Part shown: in pieces, positions 28,642 through 50,025 of the stretch
Layout: every line of letters begins with the position of its first letter
How positions within the stretch are numbered: position 1 is the stretch's first letter
Assembly (NCBI GenBank): GCA_902386135.1
Contig: CABMIB010000043.1
Span: 1-64,000 of the forward strand
Length of the DNA stretch: 64,000 nt
Direction of reading: 5' to 3'
Source of the DNA: an uncultured archaeon
Lineage (GTDB): Archaea; Halobacteriota; Methanosarcinia; Methanosarcinales; Methanoperedenaceae
Position numbers and translations under genes: made by a program
The notes under the pieces: model-generated
What the model was told of the DNA's origin: nothing
Seen by the model: the letters and a program-made list of their open reading frames with translations, nothing else
Database searches by the model: none

Positions 28642-28867
28642 CCTATCCTTGTTTAACAATCAACGTAGTCCATTTTAGGTACACCCATAGGGAACTACTG
28701 TTCCGTAATCCTATCTGTATTTCTGAATAATTTCTTTAGTTAAATATGTTTCGATTTCCCAGGGTTATTTATCATTATTTTTAATTAACAAAATCTGTTT
28801 GAAAAAAGCTTGGTGGCAGGATTGGCTTGATCTTTATCCACAGCTTTAGGTTTTGGGATGTCCTCAT

Positions 28868-30111: not shown

Positions 30112-31510
30112 TTGATAACCTCTCTTTGATTTTGTTTACAATACTGCAATACTCTTCTTCATACAGGGATCTGAACTTATCCGCCCTTCCTCCGATATAG
30201 ATTTCTATCGCGCTGTTGTTTTCGTCCTTAACGAGATCGACCCAGACCTTTTTAGGGATTATAAAAAAAGATATCACCAGGCTCAGGGTTAAAAGCCCGA
30301 TTCCAACGTACACTAAAAGCGTACCGTCATCTTTCACGACATAAAAATTACTCCAGTACTTTATGTCATAGAAACTAAGATATTTATCGGATATCTTGAC
30401 TGTATCATTGAGTCTCAGCGTCCCATTGTATATCTCCTTTCCTCTATCAAATACCTTAAGGAACAGGATTGGAGTTTGTTTCACATCCGACTCCATAATT
30501 TTTTCTGACGTTAAATTTGAGGTCATATACACCATCAAACCGCCCTTAAGTCCAGTGTTTCCCATTTCAAAATACGTAACATACCTCCCGCTGTTATCAT
30601 TATCAGACGCTGTTATATAAGAGCCTGAGTAGACCGTCCCATCCGGGTTCCTTAAAATCAGCAGGGGCGCCAGGCCATAGACATTTCCGAGAAAAGTGTA
30701 ACCCCCATATGTCATCATATGGTTTGAATAGACAATATCCGTTTTTACTTTCTGTCCGTTCTCTGTTATATCAAGCTTTCCTGCAGGTCCACGCGATGTC
30801 CCAGTTTCATCCTTATAATCAGGATAGAACTTCTCAAGATTGATATCGAATCCCTGGTGTTTTTCATAAAAAAAAGGACCTTCGTTAATAAACATATAAT
30901 TCCCATGCTCCTCCGAAAGTGTCTGCCCTTCTATTAATCGCATATCCCCTTCCATCCTGGATACACCTCCATATACCGAGGCAACTATGATAAAAAGTAT
31001 GCAGGCATGGAACAGCGGCGTACCAAATGCTCCGATCCTGTTCTTTTCGGCAAACATGCGGTTTTCTTCCTGAGTTACTTTATACCCGCACGACCTGAGT
31101 ACAGAACTTATTAAAGAACTGACCTGACCGCCCTCTTTTCCTGCCCTGATCGATGTGCTATTTTCAAGCCCGCTGATATAAGCTTTATTCTGGAATTGTT
31201 TTTTACCCGATCTTTTAATAGCGGTACTGAACATATTTGACGTACAGAAGAGGGTATTTATAAAAAGAAGCGATGCAAGACTTATAAATATAAATGATGA
31301 AAAAAGATTTGTCAGACCGAGTTTCTCAAATAATGCAGCCAGGGAAGGATGATTGTTTCTCCAGGTGTTGTAAACATCAGGCTTGAGCTGTGATTTCTGC
31401 GGTATATGCGTCCCTATTATTGAAAAAATAATAATAAGAAAAATAAGAACTATAGCAAGCTTCCGGGATTTAAAAAAATTGGATACTTTTTTTCCTGCAT
31501 TAAAATCCAT
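30098..31510 (-). CDS. resB: ResB/Ccs1-type cytochrome c maturation protein
   Basis: A 470-residue protein. Membrane segments near residues 18-36 (LAIVLIFLIIIFSIIGTHIP) and 65-85 are followed by a third near 165-183 (TPLFHACILFIIVASVYGG). A long extracytoplasmic beta domain comes next, then a last helix (LLVYVGIGLLTLSLVISFFI) and a short cytosolic tail. This is the ResB topology: four helices with a large external domain that receives apocytochrome. The KSRKLAIVLI start and the GTHIPQ motif fit the family. It forms the System II synthetase with CcsA, its overlapping downstream neighbour. No CcdA is present in this window; the divergent thioredoxin-like gene may supply the reductant. Confidence 0.92.
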   Translation of the reverse strand: MDFNAGKKVSNFFKSRKLAIVLIFLIIIFSIIGTHIPQKSQLKPDVYNTWRNNHPSLAALFEKLGLTNLFSSFIFISLASLLFINTLFCTSNMFSTAIKRSGKKQFQNKAYISGLENSTSIRAGKEGGQVSSLISSVLRSCGYKVTQEENRMFAEKNRIGAFGTPLFHACILFIIVASVYGGVSRMEGDMRLIEGQTLSEEHGNYMFINEGPFFYEKHQGFDINLEKFYPDYKDETGTSRGPAGKLDITENGQKVKTDIVYSNHMMTYGGYTFLGNVYGLAPLLILRNPDGTVYSGSYITASDNDNSGRYVTYFEMGNTGLKGGLMVYMTSNLTSEKIMESDVKQTPILFLKVFDRGKEIYNGTLRLNDTVKISDKYLSFYDIKYWSNFYVVKDDGTLLVYVGIGLLTLSLVISFFIIPKKVWVDLVKDENNSAIEIYIGGRADKFRSLYEEEYCSIVNKIKERLSNGTD

Positions 31511-31600
31511 TATTTTATCTTTCCTTACTTGATATGTTATTATAATTCCGTTCTTTGAAATGGATTTCCGGGTTCATAAGATATTCAATTAAACCAAGTT

Positions 31601-31636
31601 AAGTATAAATAACTTTGCAGACGATGTAAACAAAAA
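31601..31636 (+). promoter_or_regulatory. TATA box for the thioredoxin-like gene with very short leader
   Basis: AAGTATAAAT at 31601-31610 lies 27-36 bases before the ATG at 31637. Transcription should therefore start almost at the start codon, suggesting a leaderless mRNA. No Shine-Dalgarno sequence is visible. Confidence 0.5.
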
Positions 31637-32113
31637 ATGACTCCGGCAAATAAGCTCATATCAATAATTATTCTCGGCATGGCACTGTTTTTAATTGCGA
31701 ACTGGTGGCAGGATTCACTCTCAAAAACTGAAGGAGACTTCATCAAACTTGGCGGTCTCTCGTTTTACACATCAATAGATAAGGGAACTGAACATGCAAA
31801 GAATCTCAGTAAGCCGATTTTTCTGTATTTCAGATCTGAGACGTGCGAGTGGTGCATAAAATTCGAAGAAGAATCGTTGTCCGATAAAAAAGTCATGGAC
31901 ATCCTCAGTAAAAATTTCATTCTTATATCGATAGATACGTTCAAACAAAAAAATGTCGCTTCCAACCTCAATGTCCGGAGTACCCCCTATATGATTTTTT
32001 TTACTAAAGACGGCGAAGAGATATCGAGGATACCTGGATACATCCCGACAGATGAGTTCCTTGTTAAATTAAATGAGACGCTTGAAAGTGCTAAAATCAG
32101 CCCTAACTCTTGA
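31637..32113 (+). CDS. Membrane-anchored thioredoxin-fold protein, likely for apocytochrome reduction
   Basis: A 158-residue protein with an N-terminal membrane anchor (residues 7-22) and a thioredoxin-like domain. The active site is CEWC (Cys70, Cys73), preceded by PIFLYFRSET, and a cis-Pro lies in RSTPYMIFF (Pro117). This is the Thioredoxin_7/ResA-SoxW type layout, facing outside. In System II maturation such a protein keeps CXXCH cysteines reduced before haem ligation. It diverges from the resB-ccsA operon across a 126-base gap, which supports that role. A general disulfide-reductase role cannot be excluded. It overlaps the 3' end of the convergent radical SAM gene by 11 bases. Confidence 0.87.
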   Translation: MTPANKLISIIILGMALFLIANWWQDSLSKTEGDFIKLGGLSFYTSIDKGTEHAKNLSKPIFLYFRSETCEWCIKFEEESLSDKKVMDILSKNFILISIDTFKQKNVASNLNVRSTPYMIFFTKDGEEISRIPGYIPTDEFLVKLNETLESAKISPNS

Positions 32114-33858: not shown

Positions 33859-35577
33859 TCACCAGATCAATGACCAGTTGGTGGTAACGTTCGCATTACC
33901 GTGCCACTGGCTCGGCTTCCTGTGACAATCGCCGCACTTCCTTATATGCGAGCGGTTCATATCCTGCTGGTAATGGCACATCCAGCAGTCGTTATTATTC
34001 ACAGTATCCGGCGGAGTATTGTTAATGTTCTGATGGATGGAATCATTAAAGGCGTTTATATCAACCAAAAATGTCGCACTTACCATCGGATTTGCACCTG
34101 TATAGTTTGTACCGTGGCAACCAACGCAGTCAGTTCCACCTGCGAATGTGATTCTGTGCGGATCGCTTCCGTGGCAGGTTGTGCATTGCGCTCCTCCGTT
34201 ATGATTTATGCCTGGATGGCATGTCCTGCATACTGTTATATCCAGAGTCTGGAGGGACTTCACATCATGCTCGCGGTTGTGGCATAGACCGCAGGATACA
34301 GTCTGACTTAGGGAATGTGATGTATTTTCAATGGAACCGGGGATATTTGTGTTGTTCAGAATTGATCCCGGTCTGGGATGACAGGATGTACAGTTCGGTT
34401 TGGTGGTTAATGAAGTTAGAGTACCATGGCAATCGTTACATGTTGCATTCGAATAGTGCCTATCCTGACCGTAACGCGGGGAAAGATAACTATCAGTTGT
34501 TGTTATATCATTGTGGCAGTTCACACATGCAAGAGCTGCATTTCCACCTGATGGTGATTTGTGGCAATCGCTGCATGCACCCGACTGAGGATGCTGTACT
34601 CCGGGGAACATCTGTGGATTGGGATAACTTAAAGCATGACAACCATCGCATTGCGATATGGAAGTATATGTGGTTTGGGATGTACACGCATCATCTGCAC
34701 AATGGACTACATTTAGAGATGTAATGTCCGTAGTGTCGAAATGTCTTGGATGAGCTGTTAAGGGATTGAACGTAGATGGATAATTATTCGTGTGACAATT
34801 GGCGCAGCCCCATCTAAGGACGCTGAACTCTCCTGCCACATTGGGATAACCGGTGATCCTTATTACATACCCACCCTCATCCAGATAATCAGGCAGTGTG
34901 AAGTTCCCTAAATAAGGACCGGTACCGCTCAGGTTAGCTCTTCCAATTTCGCCGCCTGTACTATTATATATAACAGCTTCAAGAGATAGACCGGTAATAT
35001 AACGACCGATATCATTCAGGATCGCTGCTGATATGTTGACTGTACGGAAGTTTACAGGCGAGCCGGTCCATCCGGGCGGGCTGACCATGTACTCCGAGGG
35101 ACTTGTCCATACTCCGGGTTTGAGAGTCACAAGCAAGCTGGGAGATATCGAATCATTGGCTGCGCCTAAATACCAGCTCTCAGGCTTATAATAGTAAGTG
35201 GTATTCGCAGACAGACCTGATAGTCTTATACTTACATTAAATGTATTATTATTCCAGGTACTCCAGCTCCCGTTTGTCAGGTTATTGACATTGGCTTCAT
35301 TCAGACCATAATATACCCTGTTATTTGCGGATACATTGGTGTCCCAGAATATAAAAGAGCCGCTGGAAGTGGGTCCGGAGTTTGCCAGGTTGGAAATAGA
35401 AGGAGATGCATAAGGGTTGGATGCGGCATTTACTCCATTTGTATTCATATTAAAAAAAGGGGTACCTGCGATAATCAAAAATAAAACCGTTGCGCCTGTA
35501 ATAATGCGGGCAGTAAGTTTTTGTTTATCGGATTTCAACATCGAGCATATATAACTAAAGTTACCTCTCCTATCCAT
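33859..35577 (-). CDS. Secreted 12-haem cytochrome: mosaic of two other cytochromes in the window
   Basis: A 572-residue protein if started at the ATG at 35577, which gives MDRRG, matches MDRTG of the 1036 gene and follows GGTGATC. The first ~480 residues (leader KLTARIITGATVLFLIIAGTPF, Fn3-like beta region, nine CXXCH) are very close to the first half of the 26-haem protein at 1036..4260. The last ~85 residues are the 3-haem cap (CVGCHGTNYTGANP ... WSLIW) shared with the proteins at 19386 and 21529. The total is 12 CXXCH. HCADDACT is a His-less CX4C at the same place as HCGDEQC in the 1036 protein. It has its own terminator. The protein directly shows module exchange between cytochromes here. 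Confidence 0.92.
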   Translation of the reverse strand: MDRRGNFSYICSMLKSDKQKLTARIITGATVLFLIIAGTPFFNMNTNGVNAASNPYASPSISNLANSGPTSSGSFIFWDTNVSANNRVYYGLNEANVNNLTNGSWSTWNNNTFNVSIRLSGLSANTTYYYKPESWYLGAANDSISPSLLVTLKPGVWTSPSEYMVSPPGWTGSPVNFRTVNISAAILNDIGRYITGLSLEAVIYNSTGGEIGRANLSGTGPYLGNFTLPDYLDEGGYVIRITGYPNVAGEFSVLRWGCANCHTNNYPSTFNPLTAHPRHFDTTDITSLNVVHCADDACTSQTTYTSISQCDGCHALSYPNPQMFPGVQHPQSGACSDCHKSPSGGNAALACVNCHNDITTTDSYLSPRYGQDRHYSNATCNDCHGTLTSLTTKPNCTSCHPRPGSILNNTNIPGSIENTSHSLSQTVSCGLCHNREHDVKSLQTLDITVCRTCHPGINHNGGAQCTTCHGSDPHRITFAGGTDCVGCHGTNYTGANPMVSATFLVDINAFNDSIHQNINNTPPDTVNNNDCWMCHYQQDMNRSHIRKCGDCHRKPSQWHGNANVTTNWSLIW

Positions 35578-35768
35578 ATGATCACCAATTATTGTCCTAA
35601 TCAAGGTAAATCAACATACTATTTATATCTGTTGGTTTAATAATGACCGTTGTTGCTTACTGGCCAAATTTTCAGTCCCCTGCATCCTTGCAGTAAATAA
35701 CCCACCTCAAGGAATGCGAAAGATAGTTGGATAACGCCGTGCAACCACATTTCATCGAAATAAATTCT

Positions 35769-36703: not shown

Positions 36704-38041
36704 ATGAATAGTAAATTTACTTTAGCCTTGATTGCGCTTGTTGGCGTAGGCGTATTTGCTCTTCCATCTACGATGGCATTGTTTGCAGGGCAGCACTCCT
36801 TCTACAACATAGATGCAACAGGTAACCAGGTACCGTGCGTTAAATGCCACGGTGATGTAAAAGCAGAATTAAGCAGTGGTTATTCAGCAACAACAAATAC
36901 GTCTGGACCACACGCTAACTTCAAGTGCGAGTACTGCCACAGGGCTGAGGCAGGCGCTTCAAGCGGTGACGACGCATCAGCAGAACTCACATATGCTGCC
37001 GTAGCTCCGGGCACTGGCTCTATTAAACTCGTAACCACAGTACAGAATTTTGAGAGAGGAAACTTCCCGAAGTCTATAACATATAGGACTGGTATGAATG
37101 TAAGCAACTGGAATGCGACAGCCTCGGATGTACAAAATCTGGATGGCACAAATTTCGTAGATCAACTTGCATACCGGGATTACCAGGGTAATTACAGGGG
37201 CAGCCTGACGACTTTTGGTACCGCTGGCACAATATACAACTATTCCAGCAGCGCCGAAGTAGCACTCCGGCCTAATGGAGTACCGAAAGACACCCAATCT
37301 ACAAAGGACGCCGCTTTCAATCCCAGAGCAGTTAACTGGACTTCAAGTACAGCTGCAGTCTATGATTATGCAGGTTCAAGAGAAGTCACACCAGGTTCAC
37401 AGTACCATGCAGCATCGCTAGTCTCATGCATGGAATGCCATGGCGGAGAAAAGGAAACCGGTATTGCAGGATATGTGATCGAAAGTGGACCACCATATAA
37501 ACATGAGACTTGGATAATGAACGGAGAGCTTGCAAGCGATTGTAATGCCTGCCACTATGGTTCAGGTGGACTAAGGGAGCGGAACCTTGCTGCAGGTGGA
37601 TTCGGTCTGACCACATATGGCAACGATACAGGTAGTACGGAAGCGCACAAAGACTTCGTAGGAGCCACTGGAGGAGTCCTGAGATTTGGCTACGGTGCAG
37701 CTAACGATGCCTGCGTTGGATGTCACACACACGTTGCAGTAAGCATCAACTTCCAGAAGAAGTACATGCTGACACTCGATGCCAATGCATTCACAGGTGG
37801 AGCCGGCGGGAGCGCTAACCACGGTAATTGGAGCGTTGGAAACTTCGATTCCAAGGGTACAGTTAATGTCGTAGAATTCGGCAACGGTACCGGCGGAGCA
37901 TTTGCAACAGGCCCCAAGGACTATAACTGGACTGCAGACAAAACTTTGTACCTTGTAAACTCTAACGGCACACAGGGTGCACAGGTCACTGGCATGGACC
38001 ATACAACCACCGACAATTCGTCAGCATTACAAACACAGTAA
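36704..38041 (+). CDS. Pentahaem ECN-like secreted cytochrome
   Basis: A 445-residue protein starting the central cytochrome cluster. A hydrophobic leader (LALIALVGVGVFALPSTM) precedes LFAGQHSFY and the first motif CVKCH (Cys45). CEYCH (Cys75), CMECH, CNACH and CVGCH follow, five in all. Segments such as FERGNFPKSITYRTG, YRDYQGNYRGSLTTFGTAGT and ACVGCHTHVAVSINF align well with the tetrahaem protein at 40009..40974 (LQRGNFPNSILGETT, RDVDNQYAGSMTPGETGV, NCIACHTSIAVSINW). The two are clear paralogues, this one with one extra haem and an insertion. The strong promoter and following terminator imply an abundant protein. A filament-forming role is inferred from the ECN-like layout. Confidence 0.9.
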   Translation: MNSKFTLALIALVGVGVFALPSTMALFAGQHSFYNIDATGNQVPCVKCHGDVKAELSSGYSATTNTSGPHANFKCEYCHRAEAGASSGDDASAELTYAAVAPGTGSIKLVTTVQNFERGNFPKSITYRTGMNVSNWNATASDVQNLDGTNFVDQLAYRDYQGNYRGSLTTFGTAGTIYNYSSSAEVALRPNGVPKDTQSTKDAAFNPRAVNWTSSTAAVYDYAGSREVTPGSQYHAASLVSCMECHGGEKETGIAGYVIESGPPYKHETWIMNGELASDCNACHYGSGGLRERNLAAGGFGLTTYGNDTGSTEAHKDFVGATGGVLRFGYGAANDACVGCHTHVAVSINFQKKYMLTLDANAFTGGAGGSANHGNWSVGNFDSKGTVNVVEFGNGTGGAFATGPKDYNWTADKTLYLVNSNGTQGAQVTGMDHTTTDNSSALQTQ

Positions 38042-38043
38042 AT

Positions 38044-38081
38044 GAAATGGGATTTTCCCATTTCTCTTTTTTCTTTTTTAG
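38044..38081 (+). terminator. Hairpin and T-tract terminator of the pentahaem gene
   Basis: GAAATGGGA (38044-38052) pairs perfectly with TCCCATTTC (38056-38064) with a three-base loop, followed by a T-rich run to 38080. It lies three bases after the stop codon, separating this gene from the rest of the cluster. Confidence 0.78.
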
Positions 38082-38165
38082 CTTAAAAATCATTATAAAT
38101 CTCTTCTATCCTGGGGTTAATTATTTATACTGCTGTTCCAGATATATTTCGTATTGAATCGAACA

Positions 38166-38756
38166 ATGAGAACATTTAGAAAAATTGAACCACTGTATCT
38201 TTTAATCTTCATTTTACTTATCACAGGATTTGCAAAGGCTGATATGCCGGACGGGCACAAGCCCGTTCCATGCATAGGATGCCATCAGGAAGGTTTCAAT
38301 GCGTATGTCGGAGAATGTGATAACTGTCATGATTATACGTTGAATGGTAACGGGTTGAATGTACCTCTTCTGGAGGATCGCCATAATCCAAAAATATGCA
38401 CGGCATGTCATATGGGAAATACGTTAATCAATGCCACTACTAGAGAAATTTTCCACAATGGTCACAATGTCGTAAGCTGTACCCGTTGTCATACCGAAGA
38501 TAATTTTAATGTTATAAAGATAAAAAGCGATGGATTTAAGTGTGTATCATGCCATGGAACTCAGATTCATTCAATTCATGTCAAAAACCTCCCTAAAGTC
38601 TGCCCCATATGCCACGGCTCATGGGCAGCAGGCAAATCTTATCAGGGGAAAGAATCTCCATCATCGGATAAGTCCGAAAAAAAGGAAAAATACGAAGGGT
38701 TTACGGCATTTTATTTTATAAAAAGTTTAATTAATGCATTATTAGGAATAAAGTGA
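38166..38756 (+). CDS. Secreted hexahaem cytochrome, copy 1
   Basis: A 196-residue protein from the ATG at 38166; an in-frame TTG at 38154 would add four residues. A leader (PLYLLIFILLITGFAKA) is followed by CIGCH, CDNCH, CTACH, CTRCH, CVSCH and CPICH, six haems in about 130 residues. A charged linker (SPSSDKSEKKEKYEG) and a hydrophobic, possibly amphipathic C-terminal tail (FYFIKSLINALLGIK) could touch the membrane. The compact haem spacing suggests a periplasmic or S-layer-space electron shuttle. No Shine-Dalgarno sequence is visible. TTATTTATAC about 40 bases upstream suggests a short leader. Its sister gene follows in tandem. Confidence 0.88.
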   Translation: MRTFRKIEPLYLLIFILLITGFAKADMPDGHKPVPCIGCHQEGFNAYVGECDNCHDYTLNGNGLNVPLLEDRHNPKICTACHMGNTLINATTREIFHNGHNVVSCTRCHTEDNFNVIKIKSDGFKCVSCHGTQIHSIHVKNLPKVCPICHGSWAAGKSYQGKESPSSDKSEKKEKYEGFTAFYFIKSLINALLGIK

Positions 38757-38928
38757 TTAATTGAATTAGAAGAGTAACGCCTTGTAAATAGTGATAAAAC
38801 GTTTAATTCGATAATTGAATGGGGATATACTTACATAATATTCTCCTTAAAAATCATTATAAATCTTTTCTATCCTGGAGTTAATTATTTATACTACTTT
38901 TCCGATATGTTTCGTATTGAATCGAACA

Positions 38929-39510
38929 ATGAGCATATTTAGAAAAATTGAACCCCTGTACTTTTTAATCTTCATTCTACTTATCACAGGGTATGCAAAG
39001 GCTGAAATGCCTGAATCACATAAGCCCGTTCCATGTACCGGATGCCATGTGGAGACCCTTGGTGCAGATGCCGGTGAAGTCAATTGTGAAAACTGCCATT
39101 ACTACGGACTTGATGTAAACAAATTGCAGACAGAACATAATCCGAAGATATGTACAGCCTGTCATATAGGTAATACTACAGCAAATGGGGATGAGAGGGA
39201 GATTTTCCACAACGGTCACGGCGCCGTGAACTGTACACAATGTCATGTCGAGGATAATTTTACAGTCCTAAAGATAAAAAACGACGGATACAAGTGTGTA
39301 TCATGCCATGGGACAGACGCTCATTTAATCCATGCCAAAAACCTTGCTAAATCCTGCCCCATATGCCATGGCTCATGGGCGGCAGGCAAAGTTTATCAAG
39401 GAGGGGAAGTATATTCCTCAACGAATGACTCTGATAAGGAAAAATTAGAAAGATTTACTATATTTAATTTCATAAGAAATCTGTTTAATGCACTTTTAGG
39501 AATTAAATAA
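38929..39510 (+). CDS. Secreted hexahaem cytochrome, copy 2
   Basis: A 193-residue paralogue of the preceding gene, again with six CXXCH motifs (CTGCH, CENCH, CTACH, CTQCH, CVSCH, CPICH), the same leader (PLYFLIFILLITGYAKA) and the same C-terminal tail ending NLFNALLGIK. Differences cluster in the linker before the tail and around the second haem, so the pair has diverged under constraint rather than being a fresh copy. The in-frame TTG at 38917 is an alternative start. It is followed 32 bases later by the anchored beta-protein gene, and so heads the downstream operon. Confidence 0.88.
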   Translation: MSIFRKIEPLYFLIFILLITGYAKAEMPESHKPVPCTGCHVETLGADAGEVNCENCHYYGLDVNKLQTEHNPKICTACHIGNTTANGDEREIFHNGHGAVNCTQCHVEDNFTVLKIKNDGYKCVSCHGTDAHLIHAKNLAKSCPICHGSWAAGKVYQGGEVYSSTNDSDKEKLERFTIFNFIRNLFNALLGIK

Positions 39511-39542
39511 ATAAAAGGATAAGGATAGAAGGTGAATTAAAA

Positions 39543-40007
39543 ATGGATAAGGAGAGAACAGTTAAATTAGCTAAAATATTAGTAGTATTGCTGATATTCT
39601 CGGTAGCCGGGTACTATCTGTACCAGCATGCCCTAGAATATGGTCTGACAAAACCAGCGCTTGTGCTCAAGGTTTCCATGAACGTAACCTCGAAAGGCAC
39701 ACCAATGATAAATAACGTAACTTTTGAGCAATCAGGCGTGCCGTTTTTCTATAAAAGGGTAGATTCAATTCCGAATTTCCCTGAAATAGACGTCAATGCC
39801 AGGATAAACACATTAAGTTCAGCACCGGCAAGCTACTGGGCATCGGAACACGTTAATTTTAATGAACAAGGCACATATAACCTCAGGTTATTCTTCAAGG
39901 ATGGCTATGAGCCAAAACAGGGAGATGTCCTGATACTGCCGATACGTATTATCAGCCATACAGGAGCTGTTGCATACAAGACCACAGCTTTTTACCTGTG
40001 GGAGTAA
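39543..40007 (+). CDS. Small membrane-anchored beta protein upstream of the tetrahaem ECN-like gene
   Basis: A 154-residue protein with one N-terminal membrane segment (ILVVLLIFSVAGYYLYQ) and an extracytoplasmic beta domain, with no Cys or haem motif. It parallels the protein at 7401..7823 in size, topology and C-terminal pattern (GTYNLRLFFKDGYEPKQGD). It starts after GAAGGTGA and ends one base before the ATG of the tetrahaem gene, whose ribosome binding site (GGAG, 40001-40004) lies inside this gene. The two products are therefore probably made in fixed ratio. I infer an anchoring or assembly role for the ECN-like protein. Confidence 0.8.
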   Translation: MDKERTVKLAKILVVLLIFSVAGYYLYQHALEYGLTKPALVLKVSMNVTSKGTPMINNVTFEQSGVPFFYKRVDSIPNFPEIDVNARINTLSSAPASYWASEHVNFNEQGTYNLRLFFKDGYEPKQGDVLILPIRIISHTGAVAYKTTAFYLWE

Positions 40008-40008
40008 T

Positions 40009-40974
40009 ATGAAGTTACTCTGGGTTCTGTTCGCTCTGGCCGGGATTTCCTTATGGTATATCCCGAATACTCTGTCCCTTTTTAGCGGACAGCACAGCTA
40101 CTATAATATCAATGCGAACGGTTCCCAGGTCCCATGCCAGAAATGCCACGGAGATGTGCAAATAGAAGTCCATACCGGTTCTATACATAGCAATTTTACA
40201 TGTGCGGACTGCCACCGTGTCCAGAAAGGCGTACAGTACGCAAGCGGTGATGATGCCTACGAAAGAATACTGTATATTAACGTCACACCATTGAGCACGA
40301 CGAACATCCAGTACAGGGTACTTGCGACCACCCTGGGGAATCTCCAGAGAGGAAACTTCCCCAACTCAATCCTGGGTGAGACCACTATTGATCAGTGGGC
40401 TGCTGCAGGGAACGACCAGGCACAATTCCGTGATGTAGATAACCAGTACGCTGGCAGTATGACACCTGGTGAGACCGGTGTACTGTATAATTATGTATAT
40501 GCGAATGAGACTGCCACATATTTTAACGGTGCACCTATAGACACTAACCCGTCCACACAATACCAAGCGCTTGATCCGAGAAAAATTAGCGTGAATCCAT
40601 ACCCGTACGGCATGGATAACCTCACAGGCGCAGGCTCCAGGGTAACTACACCGGGCACCTTAGCCCACGCTGCATCAACCATCCAGTGTGCTGACTGCCA
40701 CTCGCAGTTCCTTAGCAGTACGCCTGATACTGTTCATGAAGCTTTTATCAGGTATGGTATGGAACAGAACAGCAGCGATAATTGTATCGCCTGCCATACT
40801 TCCATAGCCGTCTCAATAAACTGGTCGCGACCTGCTGCGATAAGCATAGATACGCTATCTGATGGATATAATATAACAATTAATGGAACCCGTACTGCAT
40901 ACTGGGCAAGGATAGAGACCTTTGGTAACCAGTCAGGTGAGGCAATTGCGGTATCCAACGTCACGGTGATCTAA
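40009..40974 (+). CDS. Tetrahaem ECN-like secreted cytochrome
   Basis: A 322-residue protein from the ATG at 40009, with GGAG at 40001-40004; a longer frame from 39970 would overlap the preceding gene and spoil the signal peptide. A leader (LLWVLFALAGISLWYIPNTL) leads to LFSGQHSYY, then CQKCH, CADCH, CADCH and CIACH, four haems. Several segments align with the pentahaem protein at 36704..38041. The C-terminal ~60 residues form a beta-like tail with sequons after ACHTSIAVSINW, a layout also seen at the end of the 6694 protein (GCHTHITMNITW). It is a candidate nanowire or conductive-filament subunit. Confidence 0.89.
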   Translation: MKLLWVLFALAGISLWYIPNTLSLFSGQHSYYNINANGSQVPCQKCHGDVQIEVHTGSIHSNFTCADCHRVQKGVQYASGDDAYERILYINVTPLSTTNIQYRVLATTLGNLQRGNFPNSILGETTIDQWAAAGNDQAQFRDVDNQYAGSMTPGETGVLYNYVYANETATYFNGAPIDTNPSTQYQALDPRKISVNPYPYGMDNLTGAGSRVTTPGTLAHAASTIQCADCHSQFLSSTPDTVHEAFIRYGMEQNSSDNCIACHTSIAVSINWSRPAAISIDTLSDGYNITINGTRTAYWARIETFGNQSGEAIAVSNVTVI

Positions 40975-40975
40975 A

Positions 40976-42445
40976 GTGATAAAATATAAAACTTCACATC
41001 TGTTCATCCTGGTGATGTTCACCCTGATGCTTTCGATCCAGCTAGCATCTGCCGAGGGCGAGTTCAAGTTTGATTTAGCAACAAAGGTAGCCGGAATTGA
41101 TAATTACACAAAGCACTGGTCCAATACATATCCCCCTGACCCGAAGGCTAACATTATAATCTACTCTTATGCCGGGAACCTGTCCTACAAACGCCTGTCT
41201 GCGGTTGGTTTTATGTATGTCGTCTACGATCCGCTGGATAACATTGTAGCCGTAGAAAAAATGAGTTCGTTCCAGCGCAGCTACCAGCCCAACGTTGTCT
41301 ACTATACTCTGCATCCCCAGTCCGACTGGATAGATGGTACCTACAAAGTTAAAATAGTCGTATTCAATCAAATAGACAAGGATGCCTTTGAAAACAACAT
41401 ATCAACTGACCCTTATGGTATCGTCTCTGATCCTGAAAAATATAAACAATTCTATGAGACAGGATCCAACGCCAAGGATATGGGCGTTCTGAGAGACATT
41501 GGCGACCCCGTTGCACGGGCGGTTCTCAACTTCCAGATAAGTAAATCAGCGGCGCTTTATCCCCCTGATCGCTTCCTCCTGCATGATGTACACTTCGCTG
41601 ACAACATCACAGACCGGATACTGGGTGAGAACCTTAGTATCGTAGTACAGGTAGATAATAATTACTTGGATGATGGAACGTTCAAGCTGGCTATGCTGGT
41701 AGATAACAGTCTTGTGTCTACACAGGATGTTACTGTCAAGGGACTGAATACTTCTAAGGTTATCTTTGGAGCGAAAGCTGGTAAAACCGGTACCTTCAAG
41801 CTGCACTTCGGGGCAGATATCTCTGAAGTGAAATATAAGGATGCTGAACTGACATTTTCTATTAAGAACGAGACCGAGACCACAAGGCTGGATATCCCGA
41901 AGATCGAGATCACAGGGATGAACGTTAATAAAGAGTTCGCGGCTATTAGCAGCAATATAACAGTATCTGTAACTGCAATCAATAACGGGAAGATGGGGAA
42001 TAAGACCATCACTGTTTACTCCAACAGAGTGCCTATCGGCTCTGCTGAACTAAATCTCCAGTACCTTGAGGAAAAAACGATCGAGATACCTGTAGTTCTG
42101 AAAAATATGGGAATAAACAGGATTACAGTGTCCGACTCACCTCAACTGTTTAGAAATGTGTTCGTGCAGGAATCCGAAGGCTCACCGATAGAGGAGAACC
42201 TTATTATGAAAAGGCTTAAAGAAAATCCACTGAAAGTGTCTGCTGTATTTGTATTTATGGTGTTCGGTGGAACACTTTACTACTTAAGAAGGCGGTTATT
42301 CGGGGAGGAAGCTCTCCCTGTTGAAGTCCCGGTCAAAGTAGCTGCTGATAAGCCAAAGAAAAAGATGCTGTCCGGTATAGGAGAATATTTTGCAAGTAAG
42401 ATACGGAGCATAAGAAGAGTTAAAGATAAAAGGCAGAAGCCCTGA
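40976..42445 (+). CDS. Membrane-anchored extracellular Ig-like (CARDB-type) protein
   Basis: A 489-residue protein with a signal peptide (LFILVMFTLMLSIQLASAEG) and a long beta-rich ectodomain. The two last repeats read like CARDB/Ig folds (NLSIVVQVDNNYLDDGTFKL; NITVSVTAINNGKMGNKTI). A single membrane helix (VSAVFVFMVFGGTLYYL) is followed by an unusually basic cytosolic tail rich in Lys/Arg/Pro. It contains no Cys in a haem motif. It starts with GTG one base after the stop of the tetrahaem gene. Its position suggests a surface scaffold that holds the cytochrome filament or complex at the membrane. No specific family is recognised. Confidence 0.85.
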   Translation: MIKYKTSHLFILVMFTLMLSIQLASAEGEFKFDLATKVAGIDNYTKHWSNTYPPDPKANIIIYSYAGNLSYKRLSAVGFMYVVYDPLDNIVAVEKMSSFQRSYQPNVVYYTLHPQSDWIDGTYKVKIVVFNQIDKDAFENNISTDPYGIVSDPEKYKQFYETGSNAKDMGVLRDIGDPVARAVLNFQISKSAALYPPDRFLLHDVHFADNITDRILGENLSIVVQVDNNYLDDGTFKLAMLVDNSLVSTQDVTVKGLNTSKVIFGAKAGKTGTFKLHFGADISEVKYKDAELTFSIKNETETTRLDIPKIEITGMNVNKEFAAISSNITVSVTAINNGKMGNKTITVYSNRVPIGSAELNLQYLEEKTIEIPVVLKNMGINRITVSDSPQLFRNVFVQESEGSPIEENLIMKRLKENPLKVSAVFVFMVFGGTLYYLRRRLFGEEALPVEVPVKVAADKPKKKMLSGIGEYFASKIRSIRRVKDKRQKP

Positions 42446-42451
42446 TCGAAA

Positions 42452-43135
42452 ATGAAAGACATAGATTTTACAATAGCAATACTTGTCTCAGGGGTTTTTA
42501 CTTTGTTATTGTTTGTTTTCTATCTTTACAAAAAAGAGAACAGCATAGTGATGGGTTTGCTTTCAGGCTGGTTTATGAAAACCAGATACAGACCTGCAGA
42601 GCTACAGAAGGATACCCGAAAAAAGGATTCTGTTCTTCTAGCGGTACTGGTAGTCCTTATATTAGCATTTGGTTTCAAGTTCATTACTTTTCAGGTTGTT
42701 GTCTCTGACTCCATGAAGCCGGTGTTCGAACGGGGCGATATGGTGCTATCCCAGGCCATCTCTAAAGAACCACATGTTGGTGATATAGCCACGTTCAAAG
42801 CAAGAGATGTTCAAAACCCTATAACCCACAGGATCATAGGTATCCAGAATAATATTATTACTACAAAAGGCGATAATAACCCACTTGCTGACGGATACGG
42901 GACCACAAAAGATGATATTATCGCAAGAGCTATAGTAATCAATGGTCAGCCTATTGTATTGAAGGGTGTAGGTTCTTATTTTATTCTTGATTTCACGCAG
43001 CAGGGTGCGGTCTCCAAGTACGGTGACAAGTTCACATTCCTGCAGCAGATGTTCCAGGTTATACGAACCTGGGGATATGTCATAACCATAATAGCCTTTA
43101 GTGCATTATTAATGTCCATGGCAGGTAAGAGATGA
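42452..43135 (+). CDS. Archaeal/ER-type signal peptidase I (S26B)
   Basis: A 227-residue membrane protease. Helices lie at residues 5-27, 60-84 and ~200-225. The catalytic Ser87 is in VVSDSMKP and the His base is His126 in PITHRIIG; S26B enzymes use His where bacterial enzymes use Lys. Asp141 in TKGDNNPLADGYG and the Asp pair at 154-155 complete the conserved boxes. It removes signal peptides from Sec-exported proteins. Lying between an anchored Ig-like protein and two octahaem cytochromes, and overlapping the next gene by ATGA, it looks like a dedicated peptidase for this cluster's products. That specialisation is inference. Confidence 0.93.
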   Translation: MKDIDFTIAILVSGVFTLLLFVFYLYKKENSIVMGLLSGWFMKTRYRPAELQKDTRKKDSVLLAVLVVLILAFGFKFITFQVVVSDSMKPVFERGDMVLSQAISKEPHVGDIATFKARDVQNPITHRIIGIQNNIITTKGDNNPLADGYGTTKDDIIARAIVINGQPIVLKGVGSYFILDFTQQGAVSKYGDKFTFLQQMFQVIRTWGYVITIIAFSALLMSMAGKR

Positions 43136-44013
43136 ACAAGAAATATTATATAATAGTAATCCTGGCAATCCTGGTAACTACCCTGAGCCAGACCGTTTCT
43201 TTCATTGGCGGGGAACATAAGTTATATCAGACTGTACAGGACAAATGCGCTAAGTGTCATGGCGATATCAAAAATCAGTTGTCTGCCTCAGCAATACACT
43301 CCTCTTATTCCTGTATTTTCTGCCACCGCAAATCCACGACCAACCACACCAATACCAAACCTGTCTGCCAGGATTGCCATGAGGTCTTATTGAACGATAC
43401 GCTTGAGGCGCACGGGGACTTTGCAGTTCTCGGCTCCGAGGGCTGCATAGCCTGCCATACGACCTATAATGTCGTTATAAACTATTCAAGGCCTGCCTAC
43501 ATAGATTATGACATTACAAACAGCAGTGGCGAATGGATAATCACTAATTTCACAACTATCGGGACGCTTAATCTTTCGTACAATACCCAAAGAGACGGCG
43601 GCAATCATGATTTGAGCGAAAACACATCATGCAGGGACTGTCACAGGGATATCTTTGATGCAGTCTCAATCGGGGGTCATGCAATCGTCATCGGAAAAGA
43701 CGGAAGACAGGCGTCAACACATAATACAGGCAACTATACCACATTAAAAGCGTGGTGTCTTTCATGCCACAATGGCAGTGACCCGAAATTTCCGACCAAG
43801 CAGCACTCGGCACGCAAAACCACATGCGATGAGTGTCATGAGGCTTATGGGGGAAGCCATCCATATAACTTATATGCAAGTATCAAGACAGTACCTCATT
43901 TATACAGGAGTCTTGTCTGCATAGCATGTAAATCTACAGGCTGGCCTGCACCCAATGCTACGATGCATTTCAGAGTACATCAAGAGCCTTACTTTGATGT
44001 CACAACGTGGTAA
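43132..44013 (+). CDS. Secreted octahaem-type cytochrome with seven CXXCH and one CXXCK
   Basis: A 293-residue cytochrome. A leader (YYIIVILAILVTTLSQTVSF) is followed by GGEHKLYQTVQDKCAKCHGDI, the group signature. Motifs are CAKCH, CIFCH, CQDCH, CIACH, CRDCH, CLSCH and CDECH, then CIACK (Cys263-Lys267). The aligned motif in the next gene is CISCH, so a Lys replaces the haem-ligating His. CXXCK is known for the catalytic haem of NrfA nitrite reductase, where Lys is the proximal ligand; similar chemistry here is only a possibility. The protein ends shortly after, at FDVTTW, where its paralogue continues into adhesin domains. It overlaps the signal peptidase gene by four bases. Confidence 0.9.
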   Translation: MNKKYYIIVILAILVTTLSQTVSFIGGEHKLYQTVQDKCAKCHGDIKNQLSASAIHSSYSCIFCHRKSTTNHTNTKPVCQDCHEVLLNDTLEAHGDFAVLGSEGCIACHTTYNVVINYSRPAYIDYDITNSSGEWIITNFTTIGTLNLSYNTQRDGGNHDLSENTSCRDCHRDIFDAVSIGGHAIVIGKDGRQASTHNTGNYTTLKAWCLSCHNGSDPKFPTKQHSARKTTCDECHEAYGGSHPYNLYASIKTVPHLYRSLVCIACKSTGWPAPNATMHFRVHQEPYFDVTTW

Positions 44014-44094: not shown

Positions 44095-47000
44095 ATGAAT
44101 AAAAAAATATACATAATAGTAATTCTGGCAATAATCGTAACAACACTGAGCCAGACAGTCTCATTCATCAGTGGTGAGCATCAGTTCTACCAGAGTGTAC
44201 AGGACAAATGCACAAAGTGCCATGGGGATATAAAAGCTCAGCTATCAATGTCAACCAATCATTCCTCTTCTTCCTGTGATTTCTGTCACGTTAAATCCGC
44301 AACCAATCATACCAATACAAACCCTGCGTGCCAGGACTGCCATAATACGACACAGAAATTGAACGACTCACTCGAAGCGCATACGGATTTTTCATCTATG
44401 GGCTCAAAAGGGTGCATAGCCTGTCATACGACCTACAATGCGCTGGTGAACTACTCCAGGGCTGAATATATTGATTACACCATTACGAATAATAACGGTA
44501 ACTGGATTATCTCCAGTATCACGACCATCGGAACATTGAACCTCTCTTATAATGCCCAGAGGACAGGAGGGGACCACGACATACAGAACGTATCCTGTAG
44601 AGACTGCCATGAAGATATCTTCGAAGCAGTTTCACTCGGTGGTCATGCAGTTGTTCTTGCCAAAAATAGTACAAACATTACAAACGGGACTCAAGTGCCC
44701 TATCATGATAACTCCAATACTACCCTTGAAGCGTGGTGCAGGACCTGCCATAGCCGGAATGATGCTAATTTTTCAACCCAGCAGCATTCGGTCAGGAAAA
44801 CCACCTGTGAGGAGTGCCACCAGGCGTATAACTCAACACCCCATCCCGGTAATTTCTTTGCAAACATCAATATGGTTCCTCATTTATACCGCAGCCTTGT
44901 CTGCATATCATGTCATTCCATAGGCTGGCCTGCACCCAATGGAGGGATACACTTCAAAGTACACCAGGAACCTTATTTCGACGTTACGTATGAGATAATA
45001 GCGCCTCTTTTAATCATAAATTCAACACCTGCTAACGACCCCACTACAACTGTTGGCACCGCACAAGCATTTTCAATAACCCTGAACAGGCCTGCTGATA
45101 TTTACTGGTATAATAACGGCTCCGAGATTTTTAGAGCATTGGGTGTAATATCATCAAGTTACTCAAGTTCCAATGCAGGTATTGGGGCTTATAACATAAC
45201 TGCTACTGCCGATGATGGCTCTGCCACGGCCTCAAGGACATGGAACTGGACTGTTACAAACCAGACCGGTAATGGAACTGGTGGGGGCGGCGGGGGTGGA
45301 AGTATCCCTGTCGGAAAAATCATTACCGGAAGCGCCACAGGCCCAAGCGGCTCTAACAATATCAGTGGTTACGTGTTCGATAATAATGTTTTAGCACTGC
45401 CAGGTGTCCTGGTGCAGAACGGCAGCTATCAGAATACCACGAATATATCCGGCTACTATTCGATGACCGGCCTTCCGAACGGTACTTATACCTTCAGTTA
45501 TTCAAAAGCAGGGTTTGATACCGGCTACTCTGTATTTACGTTAAACGGCGCATCAGTCGAAAATGTGAACGTGATAATCTACGATACCACTCCACCGGCA
45601 TCGGTATCTAACATCAACACAGCAGGAGGCAACTTTTATATAAATAATACATGGACTAACCCCGCAGATGCGGATTTCAATTACACGTGGTTCAGATATG
45701 ATAATGGCACGACGCTGCAGAGCGTTAATAGCTCAACAGACTATCTCAACCTCACATGGTCGCCGCATTATACCCAGAATATCAGCGCCCAGACTGTGGA
45801 TACGTACAATAATATTAACCCGACTCAGGTCTGGTTCAATTCCACAGTACCTAACAACGCCCCGGTACAACTGCAAATTGGAAATAAAACCGTAGATGAG
45901 GGACAGCCGCTAAACTTCACGGTATCGGCAACAGATGCAGATAATGATACCATAACATATGGTACTAGTGCCACAAAAGGAGACTTCAACTCCACAACAG
46001 GTAACTTCTCATGGATTCCAACCTATGGGGATGCAGGAGTTTATTACTGGTACTTTAACTCAAGCGATAATTACGGCGGTATATCAACCGAAAATATAGC
46101 AGTGACCGTGAATAACGTGCCCCTGTCCATCACAAATTCATCGCCTGTCAGCGATCCCGCTACAATAGTTGGTTCATCCCAAACATTTTCAATAACTCTC
46201 AATAGAACCGCTGATATTATCTGGTACAATAATGGCTCTGAGGCTTTCAGAGTACTAAATGTAACATCAGCAACCTATATCAATTCCACAGCGGGTGTTG
46301 GTACTTACAACATAACAGCCTTTGCCAATGACAGCCATGACTCAGTCTCAAGAAGCTGGAACTGGAGTGTTACTCCCAATATAAACGGCACCAATGTAAG
46401 CGGCGGCGGAGACGGTGGCGGAGGTAGCGGAGGCAGTAACAATAGTGTAAGCGGCTATGTATTCGATAACTTTGGTTTGTCTCTGGGAGGCGTACTTGTG
46501 CAGAACGGAAGCTACCAGAATACCACGGATGCATCAGGTTATTATTCAATAGCCAACCTTTCGAGCGGCACTTATAATTTCAGCTATTCCAGGGCAGGGT
46601 TCAATACTGCCTATTTTGAATTTACGCTCAACGGCGCAGTTGTCATGAATGCGAACAGGACGCTCTATGATATTATGCCAGCCGCCCCGGTATCCAATCC
46701 CTCCATGACCACAGGCAACTTCTATGTAAATAATACATGGATTAACCCGATAGACGTCGATTTCAATTATACATGGTTCAGATACAGCAATGATACCACC
46801 TTACAAAATGTCAGTAAGCCTGTTAACTACCTCAATCTCACCTGGCAGCCTCATTACACCCAGAATATCAGCGCACAGACTGTAGATACTTCCGGTAACG
46901 TTAATCAGACGAAGATATGGTTCAATACCACTATACCCAATAATGTACCGTTCCAGTATGCAATTGGAAATAAGGTAGTTAACGAAAATGAGAACCTGCA

Positions 47001-50000
47001 ATTCAATGTTACAGCTACGGATGCTGATAACGATACAATAACCTATGGAACGAATGCTTCAAAGGGAACCTTTAATACAACTACAGGTAACTTCTCTTGG
47101 ACTCCAGGTTATGGAGACGCTGGATTTTACTTCTGGAACTTCAATTCAAGCGACGGCTACGGTGGCACTGCAAATGAAAATGTAGCAGTGACCGTGATTA
47201 GTGTGCCTCTGTCGATCACAAGTTCTTCACCTGTTAGCGATCCCATTACAATAATCGGTACGACCCAAGCATTTGGAATAACTCTCAATAGAACGGCTAA
47301 TGTTACATGGTATATCAACAGTTCTGTAGTCCAGAGTAATTTAAGTGTAGTATCCGCGAACTACACCAACTCTACTGCGGGCATTGGAGGGTATAACGTC
47401 ACTGCAATTGCGAATGACAGCTATAATTCAGCCTCAAGAACCTGGAACTGGACTGTTAGCCCGCAGCCTACCCATAATATAAGCGGCTATGTGTTCGATA
47501 ACTATGGTTCGGGGCTTGGAAGTGTTCTGGTGAAGAACGAAAGCGGCCAGAACACAACTCTGACGTCCGGTTATTATTTGATTACCGGTCTACTCAATGG
47601 CACGTACAATTTCAGTTATTCCAGACCCGGGTTTAATACAGGCTATTTAGAAGTTACAATTAACGGTGCAGATAACACAAGCGCAAATACAACGATATAC
47701 GACACCACACCGCCGGCTTCGGTGTCTAATACGACTTCAGCAACAGGCAACTTCTATATAAACAACACATGGGTTAACCCGACAGATGCGGACTTCAATT
47801 ATACCTGGTTCAGATACAGCAATGGTACTAATTTGCAGAACGTCAGTTCCCCGGTTAGCTATCTCAACCTCACATGGTCGCCGCATTATACCCAGAATAT
47901 CAGCGCACAGACTGTAGATACATATGGTAATATCAACCAGACCGAAGTATGGTTCAATGCTACAATACCCAACAATCCTCCGGTCCAATCATTAATTGGG
48001 AATAGAACTATAACTGCTGGTAGCCTGCTACAGTTCAACGTTACAGCCACAGATGCTGATTCGGACCAGATAACGTACGGCACAAATGCCACAAACGGGA
48101 CCCTAAATTCAACAACTGGGGCATATTCATGGCAGACCAATAATAGCGATGCTGGAACTTACATCTGGTACTTCAACTCCAGTGATAACTACGGCGGAGT
48201 AGCAAGCGAAACAATAACAGTGACCGTGACGTTGGCTCCATCATCTAAATACATCCCGCCAATACCAATCAACCTCACAAGCACGCAGGGGAACTTCTGG
48301 ATAAATAATAGCTGGCAGGCAGGAGCAGGTAATGCGACAGATAGCTATAACGTCAGTGTGAACGGTAGCTGGATGAACGGAACAACGAACACCTACCATA
48401 ACAACACGGTTGGACCGCATGGGTGGAGCAACATAACGGTCTGGGCTTACAACAATTCAGACGGCGGCAGTCTGAGTTCCGCCCCCGTATCGCAGAGTAC
48501 ACAGGTTGCCAATAACGCACCTCTCCAGATTACGATAGGGAATAAATCCGTGGACGAAGGACAGTGGTTGAACTTTACAGTTAATGCAACCGATGTTGAT
48601 AACGATACTATAACTTATGGTACCAATGCCACGAAAGGAAGCTTCAACACCACGACCGGCAATTTCTCATGGATGCCAAGCTATGGAGATGCCGGAATTT
48701 ACACTTGGTATTTCAACTCAAGCGATGGCTTCGGTGGTGTAGCGAGTGAAACTATAATATTAACTGTGGGCAGCGTGCCTCTATCAATTACATCTTCATC
48801 GCCTGCGGGCGACCCCACTACAACAGTTGGCACAGCCCAAACGTTTGGAATAACCCTTAATAGAACTGCAAATGTAACCTGGTATATTAATGGCTCAGCG
48901 GTCCAGACGAACTCAAGTGTGATATCGGCAAATTATACAAATTCTACGGCGGGTGCCGGGATATATAATGTAACTGTAGCTGCTACTGATGGTTATGATT
49001 CGGTCTCAAAGCAGTGGAACTGGACAGTTAGCCCGCAGCCTGTGTATGCTCCAGGTATAACCTCATGGAACAATAATAAGACCAATAACAATAGCTTAAC
49101 TTTTGCAATAAACGCTAGTGAAGTCGTTAATTTCAATGCTACAGCCAATCAGACGATAACGATATGGAACTGGTACCAGGACGGCGTGAACCAGAACAAC
49201 AACTATGATAATTTCACAGCGTCCTGGAATACAGCGGGAACAAAGACGATACAGGTAAACGCCACTAACAGTAATGGTACATCAAATACCATCACATGGA
49301 CTGTAACAGTCCAGGCGCAGCCAGTAACATATATTCCCCCATCTCCCGCGAACATAACCTCAATAACAGGCAACTTCTGGGTAAATACAACATGGCAACC
49401 AGGGGCGGGTAATACAACGGATAGCTATAATGTCAGTGTGAATGGTGCATGGGCTAATGGGACAACCAACACGTCTGTTAATTCTTCTTTGTCAGCCCAT
49501 GCATGGCAGAATGTAACGGTTTATGCATACAACGCTTCTGGAAGCGGCTCATTAAGCGCATCTCCAGCCACAAAGAACACTCAAATCCCGAACAATCCGC
49601 CAGTCCAATATCCTATTGGAAATAAGACAGTTTATGAAGGTCAGTGGTTGAACTTCACAGTTAATGCCACAGATGCTGATAACGATACTATAACCTATGG
49701 CACCAATGCCACAAAAGGAAGCTTCAATGCTACGACTGGTAATTTCTCCTGGCTGACAACTTATTCAGACGCGGGAACGTATGTCTGGTACTTCAACTCA
49801 AGCGACGGCTATGGTGGCGTAGCAAGTGAAACGATAACCGTAACAGTAAACAATACACTGCTATCGATTGCTTCATTCTCACCGCCATCAGATCCAACAA
49901 CTACACAGGGCACGGCGCAGACTTTCAATGTAACCCTGAACAGAAATGCTAATGTAACATGGTATATGAATGGCGCTCAGGTTCAGACCGATATAGGTAC

Positions 50001-50025
50001 CACTTCAGCGAGCTATACTAACTAA
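44095..50025 (+). CDS. Giant octahaem-adhesin fusion protein (N-terminal part, ends at an in-frame TAA)
   Basis: A 1976-codon frame. Residues 1-295 are an octahaem module (eight CXXCH, first near Cys40, last near Cys271) paralogous to the 43132 protein. The rest is a mosaic of surface domains: Ig-like (LSITSSSPVSDPITIIG), carboxypeptidase-regulatory-like (SGYVFDNYGSGLGSVLV), Fn3-like (NFYINNTWVNPTDADFNYTW) and cadherin-like (ATDADNDTITYGTNA), in several cycles. Two Gly-rich linkers (GTGGGGGGGS; GGGDGGGGSGGS) are included. The frame ends at TAA 50023-50025 inside an Ig-like domain, where all sister domains have Ser (YTNST). The same frame continues to 52920. The product probably places an eight-haem head on a long, sequon-rich stalk outside the cell. 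It has its own leader after an 81-base gap. Confidence 0.9.
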   Translation: MNKKIYIIVILAIIVTTLSQTVSFISGEHQFYQSVQDKCTKCHGDIKAQLSMSTNHSSSSCDFCHVKSATNHTNTNPACQDCHNTTQKLNDSLEAHTDFSSMGSKGCIACHTTYNALVNYSRAEYIDYTITNNNGNWIISSITTIGTLNLSYNAQRTGGDHDIQNVSCRDCHEDIFEAVSLGGHAVVLAKNSTNITNGTQVPYHDNSNTTLEAWCRTCHSRNDANFSTQQHSVRKTTCEECHQAYNSTPHPGNFFANINMVPHLYRSLVCISCHSIGWPAPNGGIHFKVHQEPYFDVTYEIIAPLLIINSTPANDPTTTVGTAQAFSITLNRPADIYWYNNGSEIFRALGVISSSYSSSNAGIGAYNITATADDGSATASRTWNWTVTNQTGNGTGGGGGGGSIPVGKIITGSATGPSGSNNISGYVFDNNVLALPGVLVQNGSYQNTTNISGYYSMTGLPNGTYTFSYSKAGFDTGYSVFTLNGASVENVNVIIYDTTPPASVSNINTAGGNFYINNTWTNPADADFNYTWFRYDNGTTLQSVNSSTDYLNLTWSPHYTQNISAQTVDTYNNINPTQVWFNSTVPNNAPVQLQIGNKTVDEGQPLNFTVSATDADNDTITYGTSATKGDFNSTTGNFSWIPTYGDAGVYYWYFNSSDNYGGISTENIAVTVNNVPLSITNSSPVSDPATIVGSSQTFSITLNRTADIIWYNNGSEAFRVLNVTSATYINSTAGVGTYNITAFANDSHDSVSRSWNWSVTPNINGTNVSGGGDGGGGSGGSNNSVSGYVFDNFGLSLGGVLVQNGSYQNTTDASGYYSIANLSSGTYNFSYSRAGFNTAYFEFTLNGAVVMNANRTLYDIMPAAPVSNPSMTTGNFYVNNTWINPIDVDFNYTWFRYSNDTTLQNVSKPVNYLNLTWQPHYTQNISAQTVDTSGNVNQTKIWFNTTIPNNVPFQYAIGNKVVNENENLQFNVTATDADNDTITYGTNASKGTFNTTTGNFSWTPGYGDAGFYFWNFNSSDGYGGTANENVAVTVISVPLSITSSSPVSDPITIIGTTQAFGITLNRTANVTWYINSSVVQSNLSVVSANYTNSTAGIGGYNVTAIANDSYNSASRTWNWTVSPQPTHNISGYVFDNYGSGLGSVLVKNESGQNTTLTSGYYLITGLLNGTYNFSYSRPGFNTGYLEVTINGADNTSANTTIYDTTPPASVSNTTSATGNFYINNTWVNPTDADFNYTWFRYSNGTNLQNVSSPVSYLNLTWSPHYTQNISAQTVDTYGNINQTEVWFNATIPNNPPVQSLIGNRTITAGSLLQFNVTATDADSDQITYGTNATNGTLNSTTGAYSWQTNNSDAGTYIWYFNSSDNYGGVASETITVTVTLAPSSKYIPPIPINLTSTQGNFWINNSWQAGAGNATDSYNVSVNGSWMNGTTNTYHNNTVGPHGWSNITVWAYNNSDGGSLSSAPVSQSTQVANNAPLQITIGNKSVDEGQWLNFTVNATDVDNDTITYGTNATKGSFNTTTGNFSWMPSYGDAGIYTWYFNSSDGFGGVASETIILTVGSVPLSITSSSPAGDPTTTVGTAQTFGITLNRTANVTWYINGSAVQTNSSVISANYTNSTAGAGIYNVTVAATDGYDSVSKQWNWTVSPQPVYAPGITSWNNNKTNNNSLTFAINASEVVNFNATANQTITIWNWYQDGVNQNNNYDNFTASWNTAGTKTIQVNATNSNGTSNTITWTVTVQAQPVTYIPPSPANITSITGNFWVNTTWQPGAGNTTDSYNVSVNGAWANGTTNTSVNSSLSAHAWQNVTVYAYNASGSGSLSASPATKNTQIPNNPPVQYPIGNKTVYEGQWLNFTVNATDADNDTITYGTNATKGSFNATTGNFSWLTTYSDAGTYVWYFNSSDGYGGVASETITVTVNNTLLSIASFSPPSDPTTTQGTAQTFNVTLNRNANVTWYMNGAQVQTDIGTTSASYTN

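Follow-up and report, generated by a model that had tools for sequence, protein, structure and literature searches.

The 64,000-nucleotide stretch of archaeal DNA analysed here (the window) lies on contig C43 of a 3.24-Mb assembly that is 99% complete, and its genes between positions 36704 and 44013 probably constitute a module for the export, maturation and assembly of ECN-type cytochrome wires, similar to those of AvECN from Archaeoglobus veneficus, in a Candidatus Methanoperedens species. This reading is based on homology, gene linkage, co-occurrence, a conserved motif and intact catalytic residues, from which we infer precursor cleavage, polymerisation in this organism, and roles for the proteins termed BETA, ANCH and OCT and for the hexahaem cytochromes. 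A preliminary description, made from the letters of the DNA alone, had proposed an extracellular-wire assembly system, and this appears to be the best reading of the locus. The eight genes that it placed at 36704-44013 are all present with the haem numbers claimed, except that the protein labelled octahaem (43132-44013) has eight haem motifs of which seven are CXXCH and one is CXXCK; the crowding that it noted at 39543-44013 corresponds to gaps of 1, 1, 6 and -4 bases between five genes. Absent from its gene list was a group at 4713-7823 comprising a second BETA gene and two more ECN-like genes, and it did not class either the octahaem protein or the giant one encoded from 44095 as an ECN-domain protein. 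Most of the gene set, sought in other archaea, was found in Methanoperedens, ANME-1, Syntrophoarchaeum and an Archaeoglobus sp. Among named organisms, Candidatus Methanoperedens has the proteins closest to the tetrahaem one (84-87% identical); together with the fwd-like genes that adjoin another S26 of the genome, this suggests a Methanoperedens species as host. Because the gene order of the locus is repeated in other Methanoperedens assemblies, and because the homology E-values lie between 1e-17 and 1e-24, the locus is not a product of chance.

Two genes of the locus, both on the forward strand, encode ECN-like precursors: a pentahaem protein of 445 residues with a long insert (36704-38041, 5 CXXCH), and a tetrahaem protein of 321 residues (40009-40974, 4 CXXCH), for which ATG 40009 is a more probable start than TTG 39970. 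Their kinship with ECN, as first proposed, is borne out by phmmer matches to AvECN (PDB 8E5G, UniProt F2KMU8) at 3.5e-24 and 1.8e-17, respectively. The ECN family profile matches 8e5g at 9.3e-71 over the full chain, and the homology extends to all four haem motifs. The locus proteins share with AvECN the four haem motifs, the LPSTTSLFLGQHMWYN start, the histidines of AHAA and EAH, and the CIACHT...IN ending. They differ in that both locus genes have inserts of >100 residues, and one has a fifth haem. The two inserts are homologous and are placed between the second and third haems; that of the tetrahaem protein (~125 residues) is not found in some orthologues, for example the compact 194-residue proteins at the same locus in L024, L025 and L028, which are 71-74% identical elsewhere. 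Exactly three histidines outside the CXXCH motifs, H29, H220 and H243, are invariant in the ECN alignment (25 sequences) and are available as candidate distal ligands. In AvECN polymers, three of the four haems receive their distal histidine from another subunit (PMC12203936).

The ECN precursors carry the signature LPxTx[SA]-LFxGQHx[WF]Y, which spans the likely signal-peptide cleavage site. In the tetrahaem precursor it reads PNTLS|LFSGQHSYY (40063-40104, forward strand), the bar marking the putative cleavage point. Among 107 distinct N-termini, the conserved positions are P (93%), T (89%), S/A (98%), L (87%), F (87%) and A/S (85%), followed by G, Q or E, H, x, W/F/Y and Y; of these, G, [QE], H and the last aromatic residue had been fixed by the pattern searched for and to some extent by the scan, while the earlier positions were free. 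As a negative control, the signal regions of hexahaem cytochromes from the same loci gave no such conservation, frequent alanines aside. The sequence T-x-S/A followed by L-F agrees with the -3,-1 rule and would place Phe at P2'. An alternative cut after the [AS] that precedes GQH is disfavoured because AvECN has Leu at that position, and cleavage three residues earlier is therefore favoured. OCT bears the same N-terminal signature. The earlier suggestion that the PNTLSLFSGQH region may be a substrate signal for the peptidase encoded at 42452 gains support from the conservation and from the co-occurrence of enzyme and ECN. The Bacillus filament protein TasA, also with Phe at P2', is a poor substrate of the bacterial Ser-Lys enzyme and has a dedicated ER-type peptidase, SipW, for its processing (PMC10269814), a parallel that is suggestive only.

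That peptidase (42452-43135, forward strand) is an ER-type (S26B) signal peptidase with an extra N-terminal membrane segment and a C-terminal extension. It matches NCBIfam TIGR02228 at 4.3e-22 (78.7 bits; cut-off 51.85), Pfam PF10502 at 1.1e-6, and SEC11A at 2.4e-7 with the catalytic residues aligned; the match to the SipW model is weak (6e-9) and below its cut-off. S26 enzymes were surveyed by a TIGR02228 search of 25 genomes with inspection of neighbourhoods, an enzyme being called linked where a cytochrome gene lay within 5 kb. This held for 33/42 long enzymes and for 1/26 short ones (<215 residues), that one cut by a contig end. The S26 tree splits at 99/98 support into 35 rows, 33 of them linked, versus 33 rows with a single linked member, a near-identical orthologue of which has no cytochrome nearby. 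S87, H126, D141 and D147 are invariant in 33/33 linked homologues. A sole genomic copy of the peptidase had been named at the outset as a point that would speak against a dedicated role; the genome has four S26 enzymes, namely that at 42452, one on contig C107 that falls on the linked side of the tree, and two short ones (C5 and C81). Neighbours of the C107 enzyme (L016:8711-14217) include a 6-haem cytochrome and BatD/AAA-type genes, with fwd-like genes upstream.

An order-wide scan of 186 genomes is a fairer test of this association, because the tree genomes were reached via ECN loci and some were chosen for their S26. For scanning, A3 was used, an 8-sequence ECN alignment having proved too diverse. 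A profile of the C-terminal extension matches 56 genomes, comprising 55/63 ECN-positive and 1/123 ECN-negative ones. In the exception (G203), BETA and S26 lie within 1 kb of each other on one contig; since BETA lies 260 bases from the contig start, it is possible, although unproven, that an ECN was lost.

BETA (39543-40007, forward strand) is a 154-residue protein with a predicted beta-sandwich fold (AF2 pLDDT 90) and an N-terminal helix as its predicted membrane anchor. It has no match in Pfam or NCBIfam, and a Foldseek search of the PDB yielded generic beta-sandwich fragments but nothing at E<=1e-3. In the order-wide scan it was present in 52/63 ECN-positive versus 1/123 ECN-negative genomes, and 50/70 copies had an ECN gene no more than 300 bp away; seventeen seeds had been taken from ECN loci, which makes the adjacency partly built in, and genome-level exclusivity much less so. 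Phylum-wide (295 genomes), 36/38 genomes with BETA are ECN-positive, and the other two are 82-87% complete. Since no Cys, His or Met is invariant in BETA apart from the start residue, a role as haem ligand is unlikely, and it may instead serve in anchoring, as a chaperone or as a base.

The gene that follows S26 encodes OCT (43132-44013, forward strand), a cytochrome in which four extra haem motifs are joined to an ECN domain. Its N-terminal profile matches 8e5g at 1.6e-12 and the ECN profile at 4.7e-38 (profile-profile). The giant protein (44095-50025, forward strand) consists of an ECN and octahaem domain fused to Ig-like repeats and is 67% identical to OCT over 300 residues; in both, the N-terminal 155 residues correspond to a complete ECN domain. 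The giant gene ends at an in-frame TAA (50023), beyond which the frame stays open to 52920; the stop may be either a true nonsense mutation or an error in the sequence. A homologous protein with 8-10 haems is also encoded after ECN or S26 in Archaeoglobi, ANME-1 and Syntrophoarchaeum, the two genes often overlapping by 4 bases, and the pairing of ECN with a larger ECN-domain cytochrome is thus a recurrent arrangement rather than a local oddity. This layout was seen at 27/70 loci, many of the others being cut by contig ends or differently laid out. The last haem motif of OCT is CIACK at residue 263. The CXXCK form is kept in the 5/5 stand-alone OCT orthologues examined from other Methanoperedens (L019, L021, L022, L027 and L028) and in 3/4 proteins of octahaem type encoded at a second Methanoperedens locus, whereas nearly all ANME-1 and Archaeoglobi homologues have CXXCH. 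CXXCK is the mark of the catalytic haem of NrfA.

The remaining genes of the locus are all on the forward strand. Two small hexahaem cytochromes (38154-38756 and 38917-39510, the latter probably starting at ATG 38929) have 6 CXXCH each and are 67% identical; the first is assigned to Pfam cytochrome c7/c3, and homologues of the second stand before BETA at other ECN loci. ANCH (40976-42445) is a predicted exported protein with a signal sequence and, towards the C-terminus, a CARDB-like region followed by a hydrophobic segment and a basic tail; the hydrophobic stretch was not flagged by a simple hydropathy scan. Profile-to-PDB matches fall at profile positions 295-375 (best 3.5e-7), and full-length homologues occur at related ECN loci. 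Co-occurrence of ANCH was set aside as uninformative, its profile matching CARDB-like domains in 117/186 genomes, mostly at positions 291-375 only.

Away from the locus, the group at 4713-7823 contains a compact second tetrahaem ECN-like precursor of 215 residues (6694-7341, forward strand; 1.7e-15 to 8e5g over 206 residues), a further ECN-like protein with an LFAGQH motif, 3 CXXCH and 1 CX4CH (4713-5495, forward strand), and a second BETA protein (7401-7823, reverse strand), convergent with the 6694 gene and matched by profile A5 at 7434-7799 (2.4e-11). A 12-haem gene on the opposite strand also lies in this group. In other Methanoperedenaceae (L084, L089 and L091), a paralogous second locus comprises 5-haem, BETA, ECN, S26, 7-11-haem and ANCH genes, its BETA relatives having an apparent lipobox in place of the helix; an intact set of this kind was not found in the genome to which the window belongs.

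In the proposed mechanism, the tetra- and pentahaem ECN precursors would be exported and then cut by the dedicated S26 directly before LFxGQHxxY. The freed N-terminus, with its invariant histidine, may take part in subunit packing and in haem ligation between neighbouring subunits. The histidine of GQH is one of the three invariant non-CXXCH histidines and lies six residues into the expected mature protein. If a free, correctly cut N-terminus matters for assembly, this would explain both the dedicated enzyme and the conserved signature. OCT and the giant fusion could join the chain via their ECN domains as end, base or adhesive subunits. At the membrane, anchored BETA could serve as a factor for assembly or as a base, and electrons may reach the wire from the hexahaem proteins. 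A wider proposal, which we regard as a serious possibility though somewhat short of probable, is that the S26 clade, BETA and the ECN-domain terminal subunits form a dedicated and widely shared kit for ECN-wire assembly. The S26 clade would license polymerisation by its cut at LPxTx[SA]|LFxGQH, BETA, almost never found without ECN, would be the anchored assembly factor, and OCT and the giant fusions would cap, anchor or functionalise the wire.

Several observations weigh against the assembly-module reading. S26 is absent beside the close pentahaem paralogues present elsewhere in the same genome (contigs C41 and C91), and 33/72 linked-type S26 genes lie >3 kb from any detected ECN gene, mostly on contigs without ECN and some in other cytochrome settings, such as that on C107. 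The scan and profiles were seeded from ECN loci, which introduces ascertainment into the tree and adjacency counts; 24 further tree genomes were partly picked for an S26 at an ECN locus, and the surveyed genomes are related to one another. The AF2 model of the tetrahaem protein is unusable (pLDDT 38), and both ECN genes of the locus have the long insert that AvECN lacks. This last point invites the explanation, which we consider unlikely, that the locus proteins are non-polymerising surface electron carriers, their inserts blocking stacking and leaving a short-range conduit. Methanoperedens on electrodes has so far been tied to OmcZ-like genes (PMC10874420), which would be consistent with such a role, but the otherwise similar orthologues that lack the insert, the invariance of the key histidines, and the 6694 protein, compact like AvECN, all argue against it.

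A different account of the enzyme, with a somewhat small chance of being correct, holds that the linked S26 is a general peptidase for exported multihaem cytochromes, coupled to haem attachment, and that its adjacency to ECN arises from cytochrome islands. This would fit the ANME clusters in which a signal peptidase stands by CcmF and MHC-B and general cleavage of cytochrome signals has been proposed (PMC9012536), the presence of CcmF beside BETA at ANME-1 loci, and the linked S26 found with hexahaem and ANCH genes in Archaeoglobus and Geoglobus. Against it, linked S26 is absent from 122/123 ECN-negative genomes of the order (their other multihaem cytochromes uncounted), and the strict signature occurs only in ECN-domain proteins. 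Around S26 42452 there is no CcmF nearby, the window having a ResB/CcsA pair; the MHC-B and 8xTMH genes were not specifically searched for. It is also conceivable, though rather improbable, that the signature arises solely from the way the mature N-terminus packs, with any signal peptidase making the cut, and that S26 serves OCT, ANCH or BETA. The mature-side GQH..Y is expected to be structural, and several genomes show a 4-base overlap between S26 and OCT; the signal-side P, T and S/A, however, are conserved to a degree unusual for a cleaved signal peptide, and OCT itself has the signature.

Other features of the window concern transcription and haem attachment. A terminator-like hairpin with a 9-pair stem and T run lies 3' of the pentahaem gene (38044-38064, forward strand), and the latter may therefore be a unit separate from the genes downstream; with 8 such hairpin sites versus 6.0 in shuffled sequence, the hairpin is weak evidence for a terminator. 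A ResB and CcsA pair for system II cytochrome c attachment (29260-31510) and a thioredoxin-like gene (within 29260-32113) lie between cytochrome genes; the ECN loci of ANME-1 have a CcmF in their place. Large cytochromes are encoded at 1036-4260 (forward strand, 26 CXXCH) and, on the reverse strand, at 19386-21368 (12 CXXCH), 21529-28659 (47 CXXCH) and 33859-35604 (12 CXXCH), the three reverse-strand proteins ending in a common C-terminal KCGDCHRKPSQWHGNAN.

Parts of this picture have precedents. MmcX of Ca. Serpentinarchaeum (Met12) is likewise an AvECN homologue, and the published MmcX/ECN clade includes Methanoperedenaceae, ANME-1, Syntropharchaeales and Archaeoglobales; that work studied a single gene, and its available part describes no peptidase or BETA partner (PMC11176372). 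The ANME clusters of Chadwick et al. 2022, with a signal peptidase, an 8xTMH protein and CcmF2/MHC-B, likewise place the peptidase by cytochrome and haem-attachment genes and propose cytochrome signal cleavage, but in the portion of the paper available the peptidase is not tied to ECN, a separate S26 clade, the LFxGQH signature or BETA (PMC9012536). An operon-encoded protease is needed to mature the nanowire cytochrome in the OmcZ/OzpA system (PMC11208441, PMC10874420), where, by contrast, the enzyme (OzpA) is no signal peptidase but a serine protease whose substrate is the OmcZ precursor, and the cytochrome belongs to another family. TasA-SipW similarly pairs a dedicated ER-type signal peptidase with an extracellular filament subunit having Phe at P2' (PMC10269814), but without haem and with an unrelated filament protein. 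ECN homologues in these archaea (PMC11176372) and a cytochrome-linked signal peptidase in ANME (PMC9012536) are thus already known. A full-text literature search for cytochrome nanowires with a signal peptidase returned only an unrelated pilus paper; the neighbourhood analysis of Baquero 2023 Cell may overlap with the present one. As far as the literature searched shows, the new points are that this type of enzyme is linked to ECN and forms a clade of its own, the conserved signature, the BETA family, and the recognition of octahaem proteins as ECN-domain proteins.

No description of the maturation and assembly of archaeal cytochrome wires was found in that literature, and the locus supplies named candidates, namely the S26 clade, the BETA family and the putative ECN-domain terminal subunits, together with an exact putative cleavage signature, so that the question can be tested gene by gene. 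The same genes may serve as markers for spotting wire loci in metagenomes, and their hosts use external electron acceptors to oxidise methane.

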